Part shown: positions 20,409-30,269 of the stretch, in pieces
Numbering within the stretch: position 1 is the stretch's first letter
Layout of the letters: each line of letters opens with the position of its first letter
Assembly (NCBI GenBank): GCA_016188575.1
Contig: JACPHN010000022.1
Location: forward strand, 1 to 64,000
Origin: Candidatus Schekmanbacteria bacterium
GTDB taxonomy: Bacteria; CSSED10-310; JACPHN01
DNA: 64,000 nt
Direction: 5' to 3'
Position numbers and translations under genes: made by a program
The notes under the pieces: model-generated
Told to the model about the DNA's origin: nothing
Seen by the model: only the letters and a program-made list of their open reading frames with translations
Database searches by the model: none

Positions 20409-20550
20409 AACAGCTACGAAATGACCGGCGCTGAATGACTTTTCGGGGCGCAGATGGCTCAAAGCGGTCGCAGCGCTTGCAGACCGCGCTTGCCTTACCG
20501 ACCGGCGAGGTGCTAGTGTCGTGTAACCCAGATACGTTCCGGTGCTCGCC

Positions 20551-20587
20551 CCCCACCTGACTTCTCCCCGCATGCGGGGGGAGGGAC
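20551..20587. repeat. REP-like palindromic repeat, copy 3
   Basis: The sequence ccccacctgacttctccccg continues with catgcggggggagggac; CTCCCCGCATGCGGGGGGAG forms a strong stem. It ends 36 bases before the following Rpn-like gene start. Confidence 0.65.
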
Positions 20588-20622
20588 GGACTTGCGCTAC
20601 CCGACACCAGGTTACCAGCGCC

Positions 20623-21564
20623 ATGATCTTCGCCGACCTGAAGAATGACTTTGTTTTCCGCCGCATCTTCGCCGCGCACCCCGACATCCTCCGGGGTTTG
20701 CTCAACGATTTGCTCGGCCGCCAGGGCAGCCAGGCCATCGAGTCTATCGAGTACCTACCGAGCGAACAGCTCCCACTGGTGGTCGGCGCGAAGCTCTCGA
20801 TTCTGGACGTCAGGTGCCGCGACCGCTCGGGCACGACATTCGTCGTCGAGATGCAGTTGCTGCACGTCTCCGGCTTCCTCAACCGGGTCGTCTACAACGC
20901 CTGCAAGGCGCACGTGGGGCAGCTCGAGCGGGGTGCGTCGTACACGAGGCTCACGGACGTCGTCGCCATCTCCATTTGCGACTTCGCAATCTGGGCGGAC
21001 GCCGATCAGGACGCCGCGAACCTCCCCCGGGTGCCGATGCTGAGCCGCTGGAACCTGACGGAGCGCGGCTCGGGCAACCATGGGCTGTTGCAGGTGCAGT
21101 ACGTGTTCGTGGAGCTGCCCAAGCTGCCACCGCGGCGGCCCGAGACGGGGGCCGAGCTGTGGGCATGGCTGTTCGTGCATGCTCCGGAACTGAGCGAGGT
21201 GCCGCCCGATCTGCCGCCTGGACCCCATCGGGAGGCCGTGGAGCTCGCCAACGAGGCGACCTTCACACAGCTCGAGCTCGATGCCTACCAGAAGGTGATG
21301 GACGAGATCGAGCAGGCGCGCCAGTATGGCGAAGACAAGCGAGCGGAGGGGAAGGCTGAAGGCAAGGTGGAAGGCAAGGTGGAAGGCAAGGTGGAAGGCA
21401 AGGCCGAATATGTTCTCGCCGTGTTCGCCATCCGGGGCCTGCCGGTGAGCGATCGGCAACGGTCGCAAATCCTCGCCTGCAAGGACGTCGAGCGCCTCGA
21501 CCGCTGGCTGCGGTCCGCGATCATGGCCTCATCGGCGGCTGAGGTGCTCGACGGGGCGAGCTGA
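20623..21564 (+). CDS. Rpn/PD-(D/E)XK nuclease family protein
   Basis: This 313-residue protein starts at the ATG at 20623 ([20 protein letters not shown]), the standard opening of the Rpn/PDDEXK_2 transposase-like family. The N-terminal two thirds carry the PD-(D/E)XK core (KLSILDVRC with Asp, then TFVVEMQL with Glu). A charged linker has repeated [15 protein letters not shown] units (about 243-262). The C-terminal 45 residues ([20 protein letters not shown] to [11 protein letters not shown]) are closely matched by the tail of the next gene. Family members promote recombination or act as nucleases; some are associated with phage defence. The upstream in-frame extension is encoded by a REP-like repeat and was excluded. 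Confidence 0.85.
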
Positions 21565-21704: not shown

Positions 21705-22643
21705 ATGCCCCACCAGCAAGACAGCGTCTGGAAAGACCTCCTCGATCGGTACCTGGAGCCGTTTCTGGCCTTTTTCTTCCCCGCGGTCCACGCGGACGTG
21801 GACTGGTGCCGCCCGCCGGAAAGCCTCGACAAGGAATTCCAGCGCATCGTTCGCGACTCCACCATCGGCGTCCGACTCGCCGACAAGCTGGTGAAGGTCT
21901 GGCTGCGCGACGGCAAGGAGACCTGGTTACTCGTTCACCTGGAGGTGGAGCGCCGGCCGGGGCCGGAGTTTCCCGAGCGCATCTACGTTTACGGGTATCG
22001 CATTTTCGATCGCTACCGGCGCCCCGTGATCTCGCTGGCGCTGCTGACGGACGTCGGCAGGGGGTATCGCGCGGCACTCTACCGGGTCGCGCGCTGGGGG
22101 TTTTCGCTTCGGCTGCGGTTCCCGGTCGTCAAGATCGCCGACTACCGCGACCGGCGAGAGGCGCTCGAGCAGGACCCGAACCCGTTCGCGCTCGTGGTCC
22201 TCGCTCATCTCGCCGTCCAGGATGCGAAAGGCAGCATGCCGGACCTGCGCGACAGCAAGCTTCGGCTGGTCCGCCTGCTGTTTCGCCGGGGCTACGCGCG
22301 CGCGCAGGTGCTCGAGCTGCTGCGTTTTCTCGACTGGCTCGTTGCGCTGCCGGAAGACTTGGAGGTAGTCTTTTGGGCAGAGGTGGAGAAGCTCGAGGAG
22401 GAAGCATCCATGCCGCACGTTTTAAGCATCGAGCGCATTGCCGAGAAGCGCGGGCGCGAGGAAGGCATCGCTGTAGGAGAGGCCAAAGCCCTCCTTGCCG
22501 TGCTCGCCGTTCGCGGGCTGCCGCTCACCGAGGCGCAGCGCAACCGAATCCTGTCCTGCGAGAGCGGCGACTGCCTCGAGCGGTGGCTGCGACGAGCCGT
22601 CACTGCTTCCTCGGCGGCCGAGGTCTTCGAGGAAGCGAGCTGA
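21705..22643 (+). CDS. Rpn-like (DUF4351-type) putative nuclease/transposase family protein
   Basis: This 312-residue protein starts at the ATG at 21705 without a visible SD. The sequence [24 protein letters not shown] (about 66-89) holds the Asp and Glu of a PD-(D/E)XK-like core, as in cytosolic Rpn-type or YadD-like families. The body is different from its upstream neighbour. The last 47 residues ([20 protein letters not shown] to [11 protein letters not shown]) are clearly homologous to the neighbour's tail, which suggests a shared interaction or regulatory module. The intervening 140 bases hold the heptamer hairpin. The pair looks like an accessory unit; the role is unknown. Confidence 0.75.
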
Positions 22644-25250: not shown

Positions 25251-26669
25251 ATGTCGATGCTCGAAGATCTCAGCGGGGGAACCTGCGAGGCATACATGAC
25301 GGTGGCGCAGCTCATGGCCGTCTGCGAGCACCGCGGCTTCCGCCCCCCCAAGCGTGACAAGGCCTCGCTCGCCGCTTTCGTCGCCCCGCGGCTGCTCTCC
25401 AGCGCGGGCGTCGAGCGCGCGATGGCCAAGCTGAAGGTACCATGGCTCTCGACGATGCATGCGCTCGCCCTCGCTCCTGATGACGTGGGTGTCAGCATGC
25501 GAGTCGTCCGCAGGGTCGCGCAGCTCGAGGGCAGGGAGTACCGTGACGCGTTTCGCGCTCTGGGCGACGAGCTCCTGGCGCGCGGCGTCGTCCTGGTCCG
25601 CGATGAGGACGAGCCGGGCGCGGAAAGCCGATTCGCGAGCCTCTACCTGATTCTCCCCGAGGCGCATCGCCGGTTCCTGCCGCCGTTTCCGGTGCCCTCC
25701 GCTCCACTGCCGGCGCCGCCGCCATCCGGCGCCGCGAGCAAGCGCATGGAGTATTGCCGGCGCGCGCTCAGGGCCGCCGTAGATCGCCACCGGGGCGGGG
25801 GGGGATCGGCAGGAACGGCGAGCGGGTTGCTCGCGCGCTGCGCCGCGCGGGTGACCATCGAGGGGGAGCGCCTGAAGGTCGGAGGCAGCGAGATCTCCGC
25901 GGTAGCCGCCCTCGTCGATAGCAACCGTGCGCAGTGGATGCGCGACGAGACCGATGCGAATACGTCTCGGTACTTTTACTTGTCGGCTCCGCCCTGGACC
26001 TGGCGCGAAGCGGCGGCCTACGTCTGGCACCACTTGCCTTCCGGTCACGGAGCGAGTTGCAAGGCGCTCGCCGAGTCGCTGGGGCTACTGGCCGTCGAGG
26101 TCGATGTCGCGAAGCTGGAAGCCTTTGCCAGCGAAGGCGAAGAGGCCGGGATCTTGATGTCCGCCGAAGTCGCAGGAGAAAGGCTCTACGCGGCGGCGCC
26201 GGAAGGCGACGTCGGCGACGAGACACTGGTCTCGCGGCCGTGCGCCGGCGGCATCGCAGTCGATTTGAGCTGTACGGGCATGGCGCCGCTGCTCGAGCTC
26301 GTGGCGCTATGCCGCGTTCGCGCCGAGAAGCAGGGTCAAACGCTGGTGCTCGTGCCTGACCTGGTTCGCATCGGCCGGCGCTGGGGAGAAGAATCCGTTC
26401 AACTCATGCTCGGCGCCGTATCCCGCAACAGCCCGGCGTTTGGCGCAGCGGTCGTGAAAGTGAGGCAGAGCTACGGCAAGCTGCTCGTGCATGCGGGCCT
26501 GGTGGTGATGCGCGTCGCCGATATCGGCCTGCGAGCGCTGCTGCAGCACCAGCTCGAACCACACATCCGCGAGCTGGGTGACGACTATCTGGCAGTCCCG
26601 CGCGGATTTCTGAGAGACGTGGAAGTCATCGCCCGCAACGCCGGCTTCGTGCCGAGGAGGTTGCCATGA
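25251..26669 (+). CDS. XPB-operon accessory protein, possibly helicase-associated
   Basis: This 472-residue protein starts at ATG 25251, after CGAGGA. I do not recognise a named family with certainty. The N-terminus (about 14-80, LMAVCEHRGFRPPKRDKASL) looks like a helical, winged-helix-type module similar in style to the start of actinobacterial XPB-associated proteins. The C-terminus (about 375-472, QGQTLVLVPDLVRIG to RNAGFVPRR) resembles the end of XPB/Ssl2-like helicase-associated proteins. Its last four bases overlap the next gene (ATGA), indicating tight coupling. By context it is a partner of the helicase at 28527. No catalytic motif is visible. Confidence 0.7.
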   Translation: MSMLEDLSGGTCEAYMTVAQLMAVCEHRGFRPPKRDKASLAAFVAPRLLSSAGVERAMAKLKVPWLSTMHALALAPDDVGVSMRVVRRVAQLEGREYRDAFRALGDELLARGVVLVRDEDEPGAESRFASLYLILPEAHRRFLPPFPVPSAPLPAPPPSGAASKRMEYCRRALRAAVDRHRGGGGSAGTASGLLARCAARVTIEGERLKVGGSEISAVAALVDSNRAQWMRDETDANTSRYFYLSAPPWTWREAAAYVWHHLPSGHGASCKALAESLGLLAVEVDVAKLEAFASEGEEAGILMSAEVAGERLYAAAPEGDVGDETLVSRPCAGGIAVDLSCTGMAPLLELVALCRVRAEKQGQTLVLVPDLVRIGRRWGEESVQLMLGAVSRNSPAFGAAVVKVRQSYGKLLVHAGLVVMRVADIGLRALLQHQLEPHIRELGDDYLAVPRGFLRDVEVIARNAGFVPRRLP

Positions 26670-28543
26670 GCGGCGAGACGGCGCTCCGGCCGGTCGCGGA
26701 TGAGGAGCTTGTCGGGCTGGTCGTGAGAAGGGCCGGCGAGGTCGACTTGCGCCGCGACATCTTTCAGGTGGCACGCTACGCCAAAGAACGCGGCATCCGT
26801 ATGACCAAGCGCGAAAACACCATACCCAGGACCGATGCGCGGCGGTTGGCAAAGCTGCTCTCGCGCCAGGGTGAAGATACGATCATCGAGCAGGAAGGAT
26901 TTTCCGAGTGGGCGGAATATGTTCTGCGCGTGGCCCGGGATCTCGGCGTCGTCGAGTTCGATATCGAGGGGATATACGCGGGGTATACGAGCGATGAACC
27001 GTGCTTCCCGGACAACGATGTGGTGGTGAAGCAGCGCGAGTGGGACCGTTATCTGGGCGGTACGCCGACAGGAAAGGAGCAGGCGCTGCTGGATGTCCTG
27101 GTGAAGACCACCCCGAATGAGTTTTTCGCGCGATCACTGCTGATACCGCAGGGCGTTTTCTCCTCCTTCGGCTCGGGACTCGGTCCCGCTTCACGGATGA
27201 ATCTCTCGAACATCCGCCGGCGCCTGCTCGAGCTGCTGGCCACGCTGCCTGCGGCGGTCTGGTACGAGCTCACCGATCTGATCGACCTGATCCAGCTGCG
27301 TGAGCCGAACCTGATCCTCGATCCGGCAACCCGACGGGAGGATCCCAGCTCCAGAGCGGAGCTCGAGCGCTGGACCTTCGAAAAGAAGCGGCAGGCTCTC
27401 GCCGCGAAGGGCGCTCGGGGGAAGGTCGTGTTCCTGGAGAGGCCGGCGGGACCACGGCCGGAGATACGGCTAGAGAGTATCTACTGCAACTTCCACGAGG
27501 GTCCGGCCGGCGATGAGTCTCATCAAGAGCGCCAGCCGATACCGCCCGATGCTCCAGACGGTTTTCGCCGCGTCGAGGGCCGCTACCTGGAGTGGTTTCT
27601 GGCGGGGATTCCGTTTCTGTGCGGATTCGTGGATCTGGCGTACCGCGCCGACAACGATGACCACGGGCGCGAGATGCGGCCGTACCGCGAGCGGTTGCGT
27701 GCGGTGCGCCTGACGGCGAAGTTGCGTCAGGTCGTCACGAAGGACCCCGCGCTGGACCGCGTGGCGGTCACCGTCCTGCCGACGCACGAAGTCATCGTGG
27801 AAGCCCCGAGCTATCCGGACTGCCAGCTCGCGGTCCTCGCGCGATACTGCGAGCTGCGCGGCGAGGATCGACCGGTGTACCGCTTGCGTCTCGACCGCAA
27901 ACGCATAATCGGGCATTTCGCGGCGGCCCCGGTGGGGGCGCCGAGCGCCGTTGTGGAGCTTGGCCGGCTGACCGATCGGCCCATTCCGCCCAATGTCGTA
28001 GCGGAGCTCGAAGCGTGGAGCGGCCATGCCGAGAAGCTGCTAATCTTCGAAAACGCCGCCGTCGTAGAGCTGCACGACGCCGCCAAGAGGCGGGGCAAGG
28101 TGTGCGGAGATCTCGGCGAGCTACTGGTGACGGCCGGGCCGGCCCATTCGGCCTTCATTGTTGCCCGGGACCCGCTGCGGGTCTACGCGGCACTCGAGGC
28201 GCTCGAGCACGTGCCGCTGCTGGTGCAGCATGATGACCGAGAGCTCGCCGCAGCGCCCGCCCCAAGCAAGCTGGCGCCCCAGCAGGCGCACCGGGACAAA
28301 CGCCGGCCGGCACAAGCGGAAAAGGTGGCGCCACAAAAGGTGGGTCTGCAAGCCGTGGATATTGTGGGCTATCGCTCCTCCGTTCCGGAGCTCATGCGCG
28401 CGGTTCAGGAGAGACTCCAGACCGTTGCTGGAGCTGGCGCGCTCGTTGGCGATGACTTGCTCGTGCTGCCGGCGGCGGCGCTTCCAGCCCTGCGGCGAGT
28501 GATCAACGAGCTCTCGGAGCAGTACGATGTGGAGCTCCTCTGA
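26666..28543 (+). CDS. XPB/Ssl2-like helicase-associated domain protein
   Basis: This 625-residue protein resembles the helicase-associated (Helicase_C_3 / XPB-Ssl2 N-terminal-like) proteins encoded beside XPB in actinobacteria. Supporting segments are EVIVEAPSYPDCQLAVLARY with YRLRLDRKRIIGH (about 372-415), RPIPPNVVAELEAWSGHAEK (about 435-454) and GELLVTAGPAHSAFIVARDP (about 482-501). The first 300 residues have no family that I can name. A Lys/Gln/Ala-rich linker (about 530-560) separates a small C-terminal domain. It overlaps the previous gene by four bases and the helicase gene by 17, so the three proteins are probably made together and may form a complex. Confidence 0.78.
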   Translation: MSGETALRPVADEELVGLVVRRAGEVDLRRDIFQVARYAKERGIRMTKRENTIPRTDARRLAKLLSRQGEDTIIEQEGFSEWAEYVLRVARDLGVVEFDIEGIYAGYTSDEPCFPDNDVVVKQREWDRYLGGTPTGKEQALLDVLVKTTPNEFFARSLLIPQGVFSSFGSGLGPASRMNLSNIRRRLLELLATLPAAVWYELTDLIDLIQLREPNLILDPATRREDPSSRAELERWTFEKKRQALAAKGARGKVVFLERPAGPRPEIRLESIYCNFHEGPAGDESHQERQPIPPDAPDGFRRVEGRYLEWFLAGIPFLCGFVDLAYRADNDDHGREMRPYRERLRAVRLTAKLRQVVTKDPALDRVAVTVLPTHEVIVEAPSYPDCQLAVLARYCELRGEDRPVYRLRLDRKRIIGHFAAAPVGAPSAVVELGRLTDRPIPPNVVAELEAWSGHAEKLLIFENAAVVELHDAAKRRGKVCGDLGELLVTAGPAHSAFIVARDPLRVYAALEALEHVPLLVQHDDRELAAAPAPSKLAPQQAHRDKRRPAQAEKVAPQKVGLQAVDIVGYRSSVPELMRAVQERLQTVAGAGALVGDDLLVLPAAALPALRRVINELSEQYDVELL

Positions 28544-30269
28544 CGCGACAGAAAGCGTTCGGGCGGCGTTCGAGAGCAGCATGCCGCAGGCGGAGATTCC
28601 GCCCACGGAACGTCCGATCGTGGTGCAGAGCGACGCGACCGTGCTGCTCGAAACCCAGAGCCCATGGGCGGCCGCGGCGCGCAACGCGCTCAGCGCGTTC
28701 GCGCACCTGGAGCGCTCACCCGAGTACATCCACACGTATCGAATCACCCCGTTGTCGCTGTGGAATGCGGCCGCGGCGGGCGTGACGGGCGAGTGGATCG
28801 TGCGCACGCTGGCCGCGCTGTGCCGCTATCCGCTGCCTGAGCTCGTGCGCACGGAAATCGCGGAGCAGATTCGCAGGTTTGGCAAAACCCGGCTCGTGCT
28901 GTCTCGCGAGCGCGTGGGCTTCTTGCGCCTGGAGATCGCCGACCCGCGGCTTGGCCTCGAGCTGGAGCGCGCCAAGGAAATTGCGCCATTTTGGCATGAG
29001 CGCGAGGATGATGCGCTACTGGTGCCGACGTTTCACCGCGGCGCCATCAAGCAGGCGCTCGTGCAGCTCGGCTATCCCGCCGAGGATCTGTGCGGCTATG
29101 CCACGGGTGAACCGCTCGCGCTGAGCCTGCGCGAGATCACCTGCAGCGGCGACGGCTTCCGCTTGCGGCCCTACCAGGTCGAAGCGGTCGATACGTTTCA
29201 TCTGGGCGGCGGCCCCCGCGGCGGTGCGGGGGTCATCGTCCTGCCGTGCGGCGCCGGGAAAACCGTGATCGGCCTCGCCGTGATGGCGCGACTGCAGGTC
29301 TCCACGCTCATTCTGGCCACCAATACCGTCGCCGTTCACCAGTGGCGCGACGAAATCCTGGACAAGACCGGCCTCGACCCCCACCTCATCGGCGAATACA
29401 CCGGCGCCGAAAAGGAGATCCGGCCCGTCACGATCACCACCTATCAGATGCTGACCCATCGCGGCTCGCGCACCGAGGAGTTTCGCCACCTCGAGCTGGT
29501 GCGGCGCAGCCAGTGGGGACTGCTCATTTATGACGAAGTGCATCTACTCCCGGCGCCGGTTTTCCGGGTGACCTCGGAGATTCAGGTCCGGCGGCGGCTC
29601 GGCTTGACGGCGACGCTGGTGCGCGAGGACGGCCGGGAAGGCGACGTGTTCGCGCTCATCGGTCCCAAGCGCTACGACCTGCCCTGGCGGGTGCTCGAAG
29701 AGCGCGGATACATCGCCGAAGCCACGTGCTGCGAAATCAGGTTGCAGCTCGACGAGGCGCGGCAGGTGGAGTACGCGCTTGCCGAAAAATCCGACAAGTT
29801 CCGCATCGCGGCGGAAAACCCGCGCAAGATACACATCGTCGAGGAGCTCATCAGCAACAATCCGGACGATTCCATCCTGGTCATCGGCCAGTACATCGAC
29901 CAGCTCGAGCACGTCGCGGGCGACCTCGGCTTGCCGCTGATCACCGGAAAGACGCGGAACAGCGAGCGCGAGGCGCTCTACGAAGCGTTTCGCCAGGGCC
30001 GGCAGCGCGTCCTGGTGGTGTCCAAGGTCGCCAACTTCTCGATCGACCTGCCGGATGCGTCGCTCGCGATTCAAATCTCGGGGACGTTCGGCTCGCGCCA
30101 GGAGGAAGCTCAGCGCCTCGGTCGCATCCTCCGCCCCAAAGCGCGCTCGGCACGCTTCTATACGGTCGTGTCACGAGACACGACCGAACAAATCTTCGCC
30201 GCCAAGCGCCAGCTTTTTCTCGTCGAGCAGGGCTACCGCTATCGCATCGTAAACTGGGACGAGCGGTGA
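28527..30269 (+). CDS. XPB/Rad25-like DNA helicase
   Basis: This 580-residue SF2 helicase is of the XPB type. Motif I is LPCGAGKTVIG (about 239-249), motif II is IYDEVHLLPAPVF (about 333), followed by the XPB-diagnostic LTATLVREDGRE containing the RED motif (about 359-370), and motif VI is SRQEEAQRLGRILRPK (about 524-539). XPB proteins open or translocate on duplex DNA in transcription and repair; bacterial members are 3'-5' helicases of uncertain physiological role. The ATG at 28527 lies inside the upstream gene; a later ATG near 28580 is possible. It is the last gene of the trio; the next gene is convergent. Confidence 0.93.
   Translation: MWSSSDATESVRAAFESSMPQAEIPPTERPIVVQSDATVLLETQSPWAAAARNALSAFAHLERSPEYIHTYRITPLSLWNAAAAGVTGEWIVRTLAALCRYPLPELVRTEIAEQIRRFGKTRLVLSRERVGFLRLEIADPRLGLELERAKEIAPFWHEREDDALLVPTFHRGAIKQALVQLGYPAEDLCGYATGEPLALSLREITCSGDGFRLRPYQVEAVDTFHLGGGPRGGAGVIVLPCGAGKTVIGLAVMARLQVSTLILATNTVAVHQWRDEILDKTGLDPHLIGEYTGAEKEIRPVTITTYQMLTHRGSRTEEFRHLELVRRSQWGLLIYDEVHLLPAPVFRVTSEIQVRRRLGLTATLVREDGREGDVFALIGPKRYDLPWRVLEERGYIAEATCCEIRLQLDEARQVEYALAEKSDKFRIAAENPRKIHIVEELISNNPDDSILVIGQYIDQLEHVAGDLGLPLITGKTRNSEREALYEAFRQGRQRVLVVSKVANFSIDLPDASLAIQISGTFGSRQEEAQRLGRILRPKARSARFYTVVSRDTTEQIFAAKRQLFLVEQGYRYRIVNWDER

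Follow-up and report, generated by a model that had tools for sequence, protein, structure and literature searches.

Among the closest described relatives of the locus analysed here are XPB proteins that work with a dedicated partner. In archaea, this partner is the nuclease Bax1 (DUF790), which forms a helicase-nuclease with XPB. In TFIIH, it is p52 (human GTF2H4/p52, yeast Tfb2), in which the p8-binding domain sits directly after the clutch. Within TFIIH, the clutch of p52 is a structural homologue of the N-terminal domain of XPB, with which it pairs via beta-sheets (PMC6422496), and the pairing of p52 and XPB through the clutch is established (PMC6422496, PMC9557730). Among bacterial XPB proteins, that of Mycobacterium tuberculosis (Rv0861c) is a 3'-5' helicase and ATPase; it resembles the helicase described below in being a bacterial XPB and differs from it in that no partner was reported (PMC3353954). 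In this 2012 Mycobacterium study and in a 2025 review of TFIIH (PMC11855273), p52 is described as missing from bacteria or as confined to eukaryotes. The literature searched, mostly open-access papers and no bioRxiv preprints, yielded no description of a p52 in bacteria, although the link may already be recorded in other sources, such as domain databases. Here, we analysed a 64,000-nucleotide stretch of DNA (hereafter the window) in which an XPB gene is preceded by genes for two accessory proteins. On the basis of the results presented below, this operon probably encodes an XPB translocase and two diverged partners of p52 architecture, which belong to a widespread bacterial family and would form one DNA-opening complex with XPB. 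The occurrence of two p52-like partners at one XPB is new, and the wider point is the link with p52.

The three genes are collinear on the forward strand, to which all coordinates refer: P1 (window positions 25251-26669, 472 aa), P2 (26666-28543, 625 aa) and P3, the XPB helicase (28527-30269, 580 aa). An earlier note on this DNA described them as coupled by overlaps of 4 and 17 bases, and both overlaps were confirmed. The first, between P1 and P2, reads ATGA, with GAGGAGGT directly upstream of the P2 start codon ATG, and the second joins P2 and P3. The neighbouring genes that were scanned included isocitrate lyase, SDR, metallophosphoesterase and similar ordinary-looking genes, as well as a PD-(D/E)XK transposase. 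Isocitrate lyase was found in a long ORF directly upstream of P1 (21653-25195), with matches starting at residue 436. Co-transcription of this ORF with P1 is possible because both lie on the same strand and the ORF ends 55 bases before P1. The transposase (20542-21564) belongs to the PD-(D/E)XK nuclease family (PF12784), and an ORF at 21705-22643, which had no Pfam match, looks like a second, diverged copy of it.

Judged from its sequence, P3 is a true bacterial XPB with predicted helicase and ATPase activity. It scored 819.4 bits against the NCBIfam XPB equivalog NF045503 (cut-off 610), its Pfam domains were PF16203, ResIII and PF13625, and its best PDB matches were TFIIH XPB chains. The motifs GAGKT (Walker A, residues 242-246), DEVH (residues 336-339) and VREDGRE (residues 365-371) could all be identified. 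The last of these (29619-29639) is the XPB-diagnostic RED motif already pointed out in the earlier note, and the sequences of yeast Ssl2 and human XPB align with it. The XPB N-terminal domain (PF13625, 100 bits in Pfam; residues 32-158, positions 28620-29000) retains the YRITPLSLWNAAAAG motif, and the P2 clutch is predicted to dock on it.

The two accessory proteins were much harder to place. Neither P1 nor P2 had a Pfam or PADLOC match, and their NCBIfam matches were sub-threshold and meaningless. Searches with the single proteins were also empty: among 60 relatives, P1 and P2 were found in their own genome only, phmmer searches with both proteins against 48 XPB neighbourhoods gave nothing, and a scan of the genome contig collection with P2 gave nothing either. 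Therefore, profile methods were needed. The genes next to XPB in 48 additional genomes revealed a family of proteins of 520-920 aa, and profile comparisons place both P1 and P2 in this bacterial XPB-partner family. Using hhalign, P1 (together with its homologue from locus L081 of a Candidatus Riflebacteria MAG) matched 39 family members with a probability of 97.1 and a score of 85.3, collinear over residues 10-469, and P2 matched the family with a probability of 99.2 (98.7-99.2%) and a score of 150, its residues 23-518 falling on family positions 167-525. All control scores (reversed and 100 column shuffles) were below 25; the shuffles peaked at 20.6 for P1 and did not exceed 24 for P2. Against an HMM of 28 family members from which the window's clade had been left out, P2 gave E=3.5e-12 (HMMER) and the L081 homologue of P1 gave 2.8e-4. 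Because these profile matches lie far above the controls, P1 and P2 are two diverged members of one family and not an enzyme. The earlier note had stated that the 625-residue protein resembles actinobacterial XPB-associated proteins, an accessory type which the P2 profiles bear out, and that both ends of P1 resemble the same type, a likeness that now extends over the whole length of P1; P1 did not turn out to be an unrelated known enzyme, as the note had allowed.

It should be noted that the family is wider than the corresponding Pfam entry. In a Pfam scan, PF13625 matched 29 of 30 aligned family members, the exception being P2. This entry had no match on P1 or P2 themselves, and it reached E 3.6e-4 on the L081 homologue of P2, under the curated cut-off. 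We therefore assign P1 and P2 to the wider partner family as defined by profiles and not to the Pfam entry. Compared with other bacterial PF13625 (Helicase_C_3) proteins associated with XPB, P2 lies below Pfam detection, lacks the N-terminal region and carries an extra C-terminal domain, whereas P1 is a short protein whose clutch is degenerate.

Family members combine winged helices with a clutch, which is homologous to the N-terminal domain of XPB, and with a small domain resembling p8 and the p52 C-terminal domain (CTD). In P1, the N-terminal helical/winged-helix region (residues 10-148, positions 25278-25694) matched the family N-terminus by itself with probabilities of 90 and 82. The AF2 model of P1 was confident for residues 1-60, and the VIA-align matches of the N-terminal region were winged-helix regulators; the matches that VIA-align listed for the P1 model comprised winged-helix proteins and no p52. 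The C-terminal part (26223-26666) comprises a degenerate clutch (residues 325-400), located by collinearity only and with nearly all motif residues lost, and a CTD (residues 401-472) that matched the family by itself with a probability of 76. The top nine Foldseek matches of the P1 model were TFIIH p52 chains, which were modest (best E 1.4e-3) and obtained with a low-confidence model. The mean quality of the AF2 models was poor for both P1 and P2 (pLDDT 43.9 and 48.7), and the alignments used for modelling included other family members, so that the models and the family alignment do not count as independent evidence.

P2 lacks the N-terminal winged-helix region of the family that is present in P1. 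Its middle helical/winged-helix region (residues 23-217, positions 26732-27316) matched the family alone with a probability of 97, and its clutch domain (residues 364-455, positions 27755-28030) matched the family with a probability of 96.6 and the XPB N-terminal domain with 91.5. The model shows a predicted clutch (HubA) fold for this region, which was moderately confident (pLDDT mostly 50-78 per ten-residue block) and could be superposed by VIA on residues 303-398 of human p52 (7nvv_2) with a Z of 11.2 and an rmsd of 2.1 over 87 residues. In addition, the top 39 Foldseek matches of the P2 model in the PDB, although the model was poor overall, were all TFIIH p52 or XPB chains. Besides the fold, the P2 clutch retains the P-x-N-V and W positions; the T/S-x-x-S motif has been lost, with the conserved T/S and S both gone. 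The CTD that follows (residues 456-520, positions 28031-28225) lies at the position of the p52 C-terminal domain and was predicted, at low confidence, as strand-helix-strand-helix-strand; on its own it had no sequence match in profile comparison. The extra C-terminal alpha/beta domain (residues 556-625, positions 28331-28540), predicted as beta-alpha-beta-beta-alpha, is kept in L081 (motifs DLVGYRS and LLIVPA) and, as a separate piece, in locus L082 of a Candidatus Wallbacteria MAG, and profile comparison revealed no sequence relation between this domain and the CTD or XPB. A tandem ACT-type fold (Z 7-8) was considered for it and set aside, the coordinates being of low confidence.

The N-terminal region that is found in P1 and missing from P2, together with a clutch that is degenerate in P1 and good in P2, would also fit a single accessory protein that has been split in two, instead of paralogues. 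This seems unlikely to us: P1 is collinear with the whole length of the family including the C-terminal CTD, an approximate tree of 45 sequences pairs P1 and P2 each with its L081 counterpart and not with each other, and L082 has a full-length family member in addition to P2-type pieces. Two p52-like proteins thus remain the preferred description.

To what extent these proteins are like p52 depends on the region compared. Against the PDB, the family profile without the window's clade matched Chaetomium p52 (3.5e-8) and yeast Tfb2 (1.3e-7), and, with or without this clade, its only significant relatives were p52/Tfb2 and the XPB N-terminal domain, apart from marginal matches. The p52 matches run mainly through the clutch. 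Because this domain is common to p52 and XPB, sequence alone cannot separate a p52 from a paralogue of the XPB N-terminal domain joined to winged helices. The partner family may therefore represent a duplication of the XPB N-terminal domain that became fused to winged-helix modules, in which case the likeness to p52 would be convergent and the role as XPB partner unchanged. Consistent with such an origin, the family profile scores the XPB N-terminal domain as well as p52, the family matched XPB over its N-terminal region at 99.4% in hhalign, and a profile of the pre-clutch part found generic winged helices only and no p52. However, the domain order is the same as in p52, the full-profile alignments to yeast and Chaetomium p52 begin upstream of the clutch (at profile position 225 or 253), in a region to which XPB has no counterpart, and one member, a p52-like protein of another genome of the same phylum (G001, L124:5001-6626), shows a weak match to Tfb5/p8 (E 0.006) immediately behind the clutch. 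On balance, we regard this convergent origin as an alternative with clearly less than even chances.

The wording used here reflects these results. The Pfam entry for Tfb2 (PF03849) had no match in P1 or P2, and in other family members its matches were sub-threshold only and mostly confined to the clutch. P1 and P2 are therefore called p52-like and not p52. Moreover, p52-like refers to architecture and makes no claim of descent, since XPB and p52 share the clutch and the region preceding it does not by itself match p52; compared with TFIIH p52, the sequence homology of the bacterial partners is secure for the clutch only. In comparison with the XPB-p52-p8 assembly of TFIIH, the bacterial locus likewise has an XPB with an N-terminal clutch-type domain and a partner in which winged helices, clutch and a small C-terminal domain follow in this order, whereas it differs in having two p52-like proteins, no separate p8 identified and an extra in-chain alpha/beta domain in P2.

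We also measured the occurrence of the partner family in a sample of 386 genomes. Outside XPB itself, the family was present in 47 of 49 genomes with XPB and in 8 of 337 genomes without it (Fisher p=1.8e-49), a strong co-occurrence whose p-value is only a guide because the genomes are phylogenetically non-independent, and for which the 49 XPB genomes were counted more laxly (E 0.001) than the other 337 (1e-8). Of 48 loci, 22 have a family member next to XPB, and the two genes mostly overlap or come close to doing so; in the remaining loci, including those of the window's own phylum, the family member is unlinked to XPB. The other XPB-adjacent loci contain a single family member each, which in L082 is accompanied by the P2 pieces. 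As a family member occurs in nearly every sampled XPB genome, one accessory protein is the rule and two are the exception. The two XPB genomes without a family member were G021 and G054. Among 17 genomes searched for Bax1 (DUF790), it was found only in G054, a complete bacterial genome with XPB and without a p52-like protein, and it was absent from the window's own genome, G386 and G387. The presence of Bax1 in G054 suggests that alternative XPB partners exist in bacteria; G021 had neither a p52-like protein nor Bax1. Like the archaeal XPB-Bax1 helicase-nuclease, the system described here combines XPB with a dedicated partner; in the archaeal system, this partner is a nuclease, which was not found in the window's genome.

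In our preferred reading of the operon, an XPB with two partners of p52 architecture, the P2 clutch would pair with the N-terminal domain of XPB in the same way as p52 in TFIIH, and would thereby anchor the helicase and tune its ATPase. P1, which retains the winged-helix N-terminus, would supply DNA or scaffold contacts; as nearly all of its clutch motif has been lost, it may have swapped XPB docking for another role, such as DNA contact. The resulting XPB-P2-P1 complex would open duplex DNA, and by analogy we guess that its likeliest task might be DNA opening at damage or at stalled transcription. More generally, we would give only slightly less than even chances to the idea that bacterial XPB usually forms the core of an XPB-p52 module like that of TFIIH, either older than its eukaryotic counterpart or parallel to it, and that this lineage has elaborated the module with two specialised p52-like subunits, one of which contains a p8-like domain within its chain. 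With a p52-like partner accompanying it in 47 of 49 sampled bacterial genomes, bacterial XPB, which has long lacked an explanation, would gain an obvious regulator; if true, this would also offer a convenient system in which to study XPB activation biochemically, and a scenario for the origin of the TFIIH core that can be tested. As a counterpoint to the trio model, a third and more canonical p52-like protein, unlinked and with the canonical clutch VVQPNFEILVP, is encoded on contig C12 of the window's own genome (L123:6807-8183). Its gene is flanked by a YceI-like ORF and by FHA-domain/glycine-cleavage ORFs, and it is either genuine or a binning contamination.

Further investigation of the trio itself drew on the window's genome (9.2 Mb), seven other sampled members of its phylum and an XPB scan of genome contigs, which retrieved L081 and L082 with 72% and 71% identity, respectively. 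L081 carries the whole trio in the same order (P1 ∼36%, P2 ∼40% and XPB ∼72% identical), with overlaps of 17 bases between P1 and P2 and 14 bases between P2 and XPB, for which the ATG and TGA positions were checked. Beyond these three genes, the L081 locus (21.7 kb) had no similarity to the window. The identity of the three proteins, set against the lack of any other match, indicates that their coding is not due to chance and that the trio is conserved and not the neighbourhood. L082 contains a full-length family member (as two ORFs), pieces of P2 and XPB; its P2 homologue (L082:4503-5678), which was read piece by piece, is in pieces in more than one frame, without a profile match to the clutch/CTD stretch, which the full-length member beside it could supply. 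The exact trio was seen in two genomes only, from different phyla and with different flanks, and partially in L082. Beyond the window's genome, L081 and L082, P1 and P2 were not found in the genomes searched for either, and tblastn against the plasmid collection found neither. The earlier note had asked whether the trio is conserved as a unit or separable in relatives, and the answer is divided: the trio is intact in one distant genome with different neighbours, though in one other genome only, whereas in the window's own phylum no family member adjoins XPB and the p52-like gene is located at another site, so that the genes are separable at phylum depth.

A trio that is patchy and common to different phyla could also be a defence or anti-mobile-element system with an XPB-like motor, a function which the earlier note considered possible, and P3 showed weak PADLOC matches to PbeA helicases. 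However, PADLOC had no match for P1 or P2, the scanned neighbours were ordinary genes plus a PD-(D/E)XK transposase, P1 and P2 were absent from the plasmid collection, and the partner family goes with an ordinary single-copy XPB across the sample. The proposal thus found no support, and we consider a defence role very improbable.

Approximate trees (FastTree) grouped the window XPB with those of L081 and L082 (support 1.0) and not with the XPBs of its own phylum. Its identity was 68-72% to L081/L082 versus 53-56% to its own phylum. In the phylum of L081, 7 of 37 genomes matched the family/XPB profile. This patchy occurrence and the XPB grouping together suggest transfer between phyla, or else misbinning of the contig (contamination estimate 3.7%). 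Finally, an XPB 54% identical to that of the window is encoded in a record of the phage collection (MT836665.1:7718-9223). This record of 9.2 kb, named Bacteriophage sp. and derived from human faeces, is possibly a bacterial fragment.
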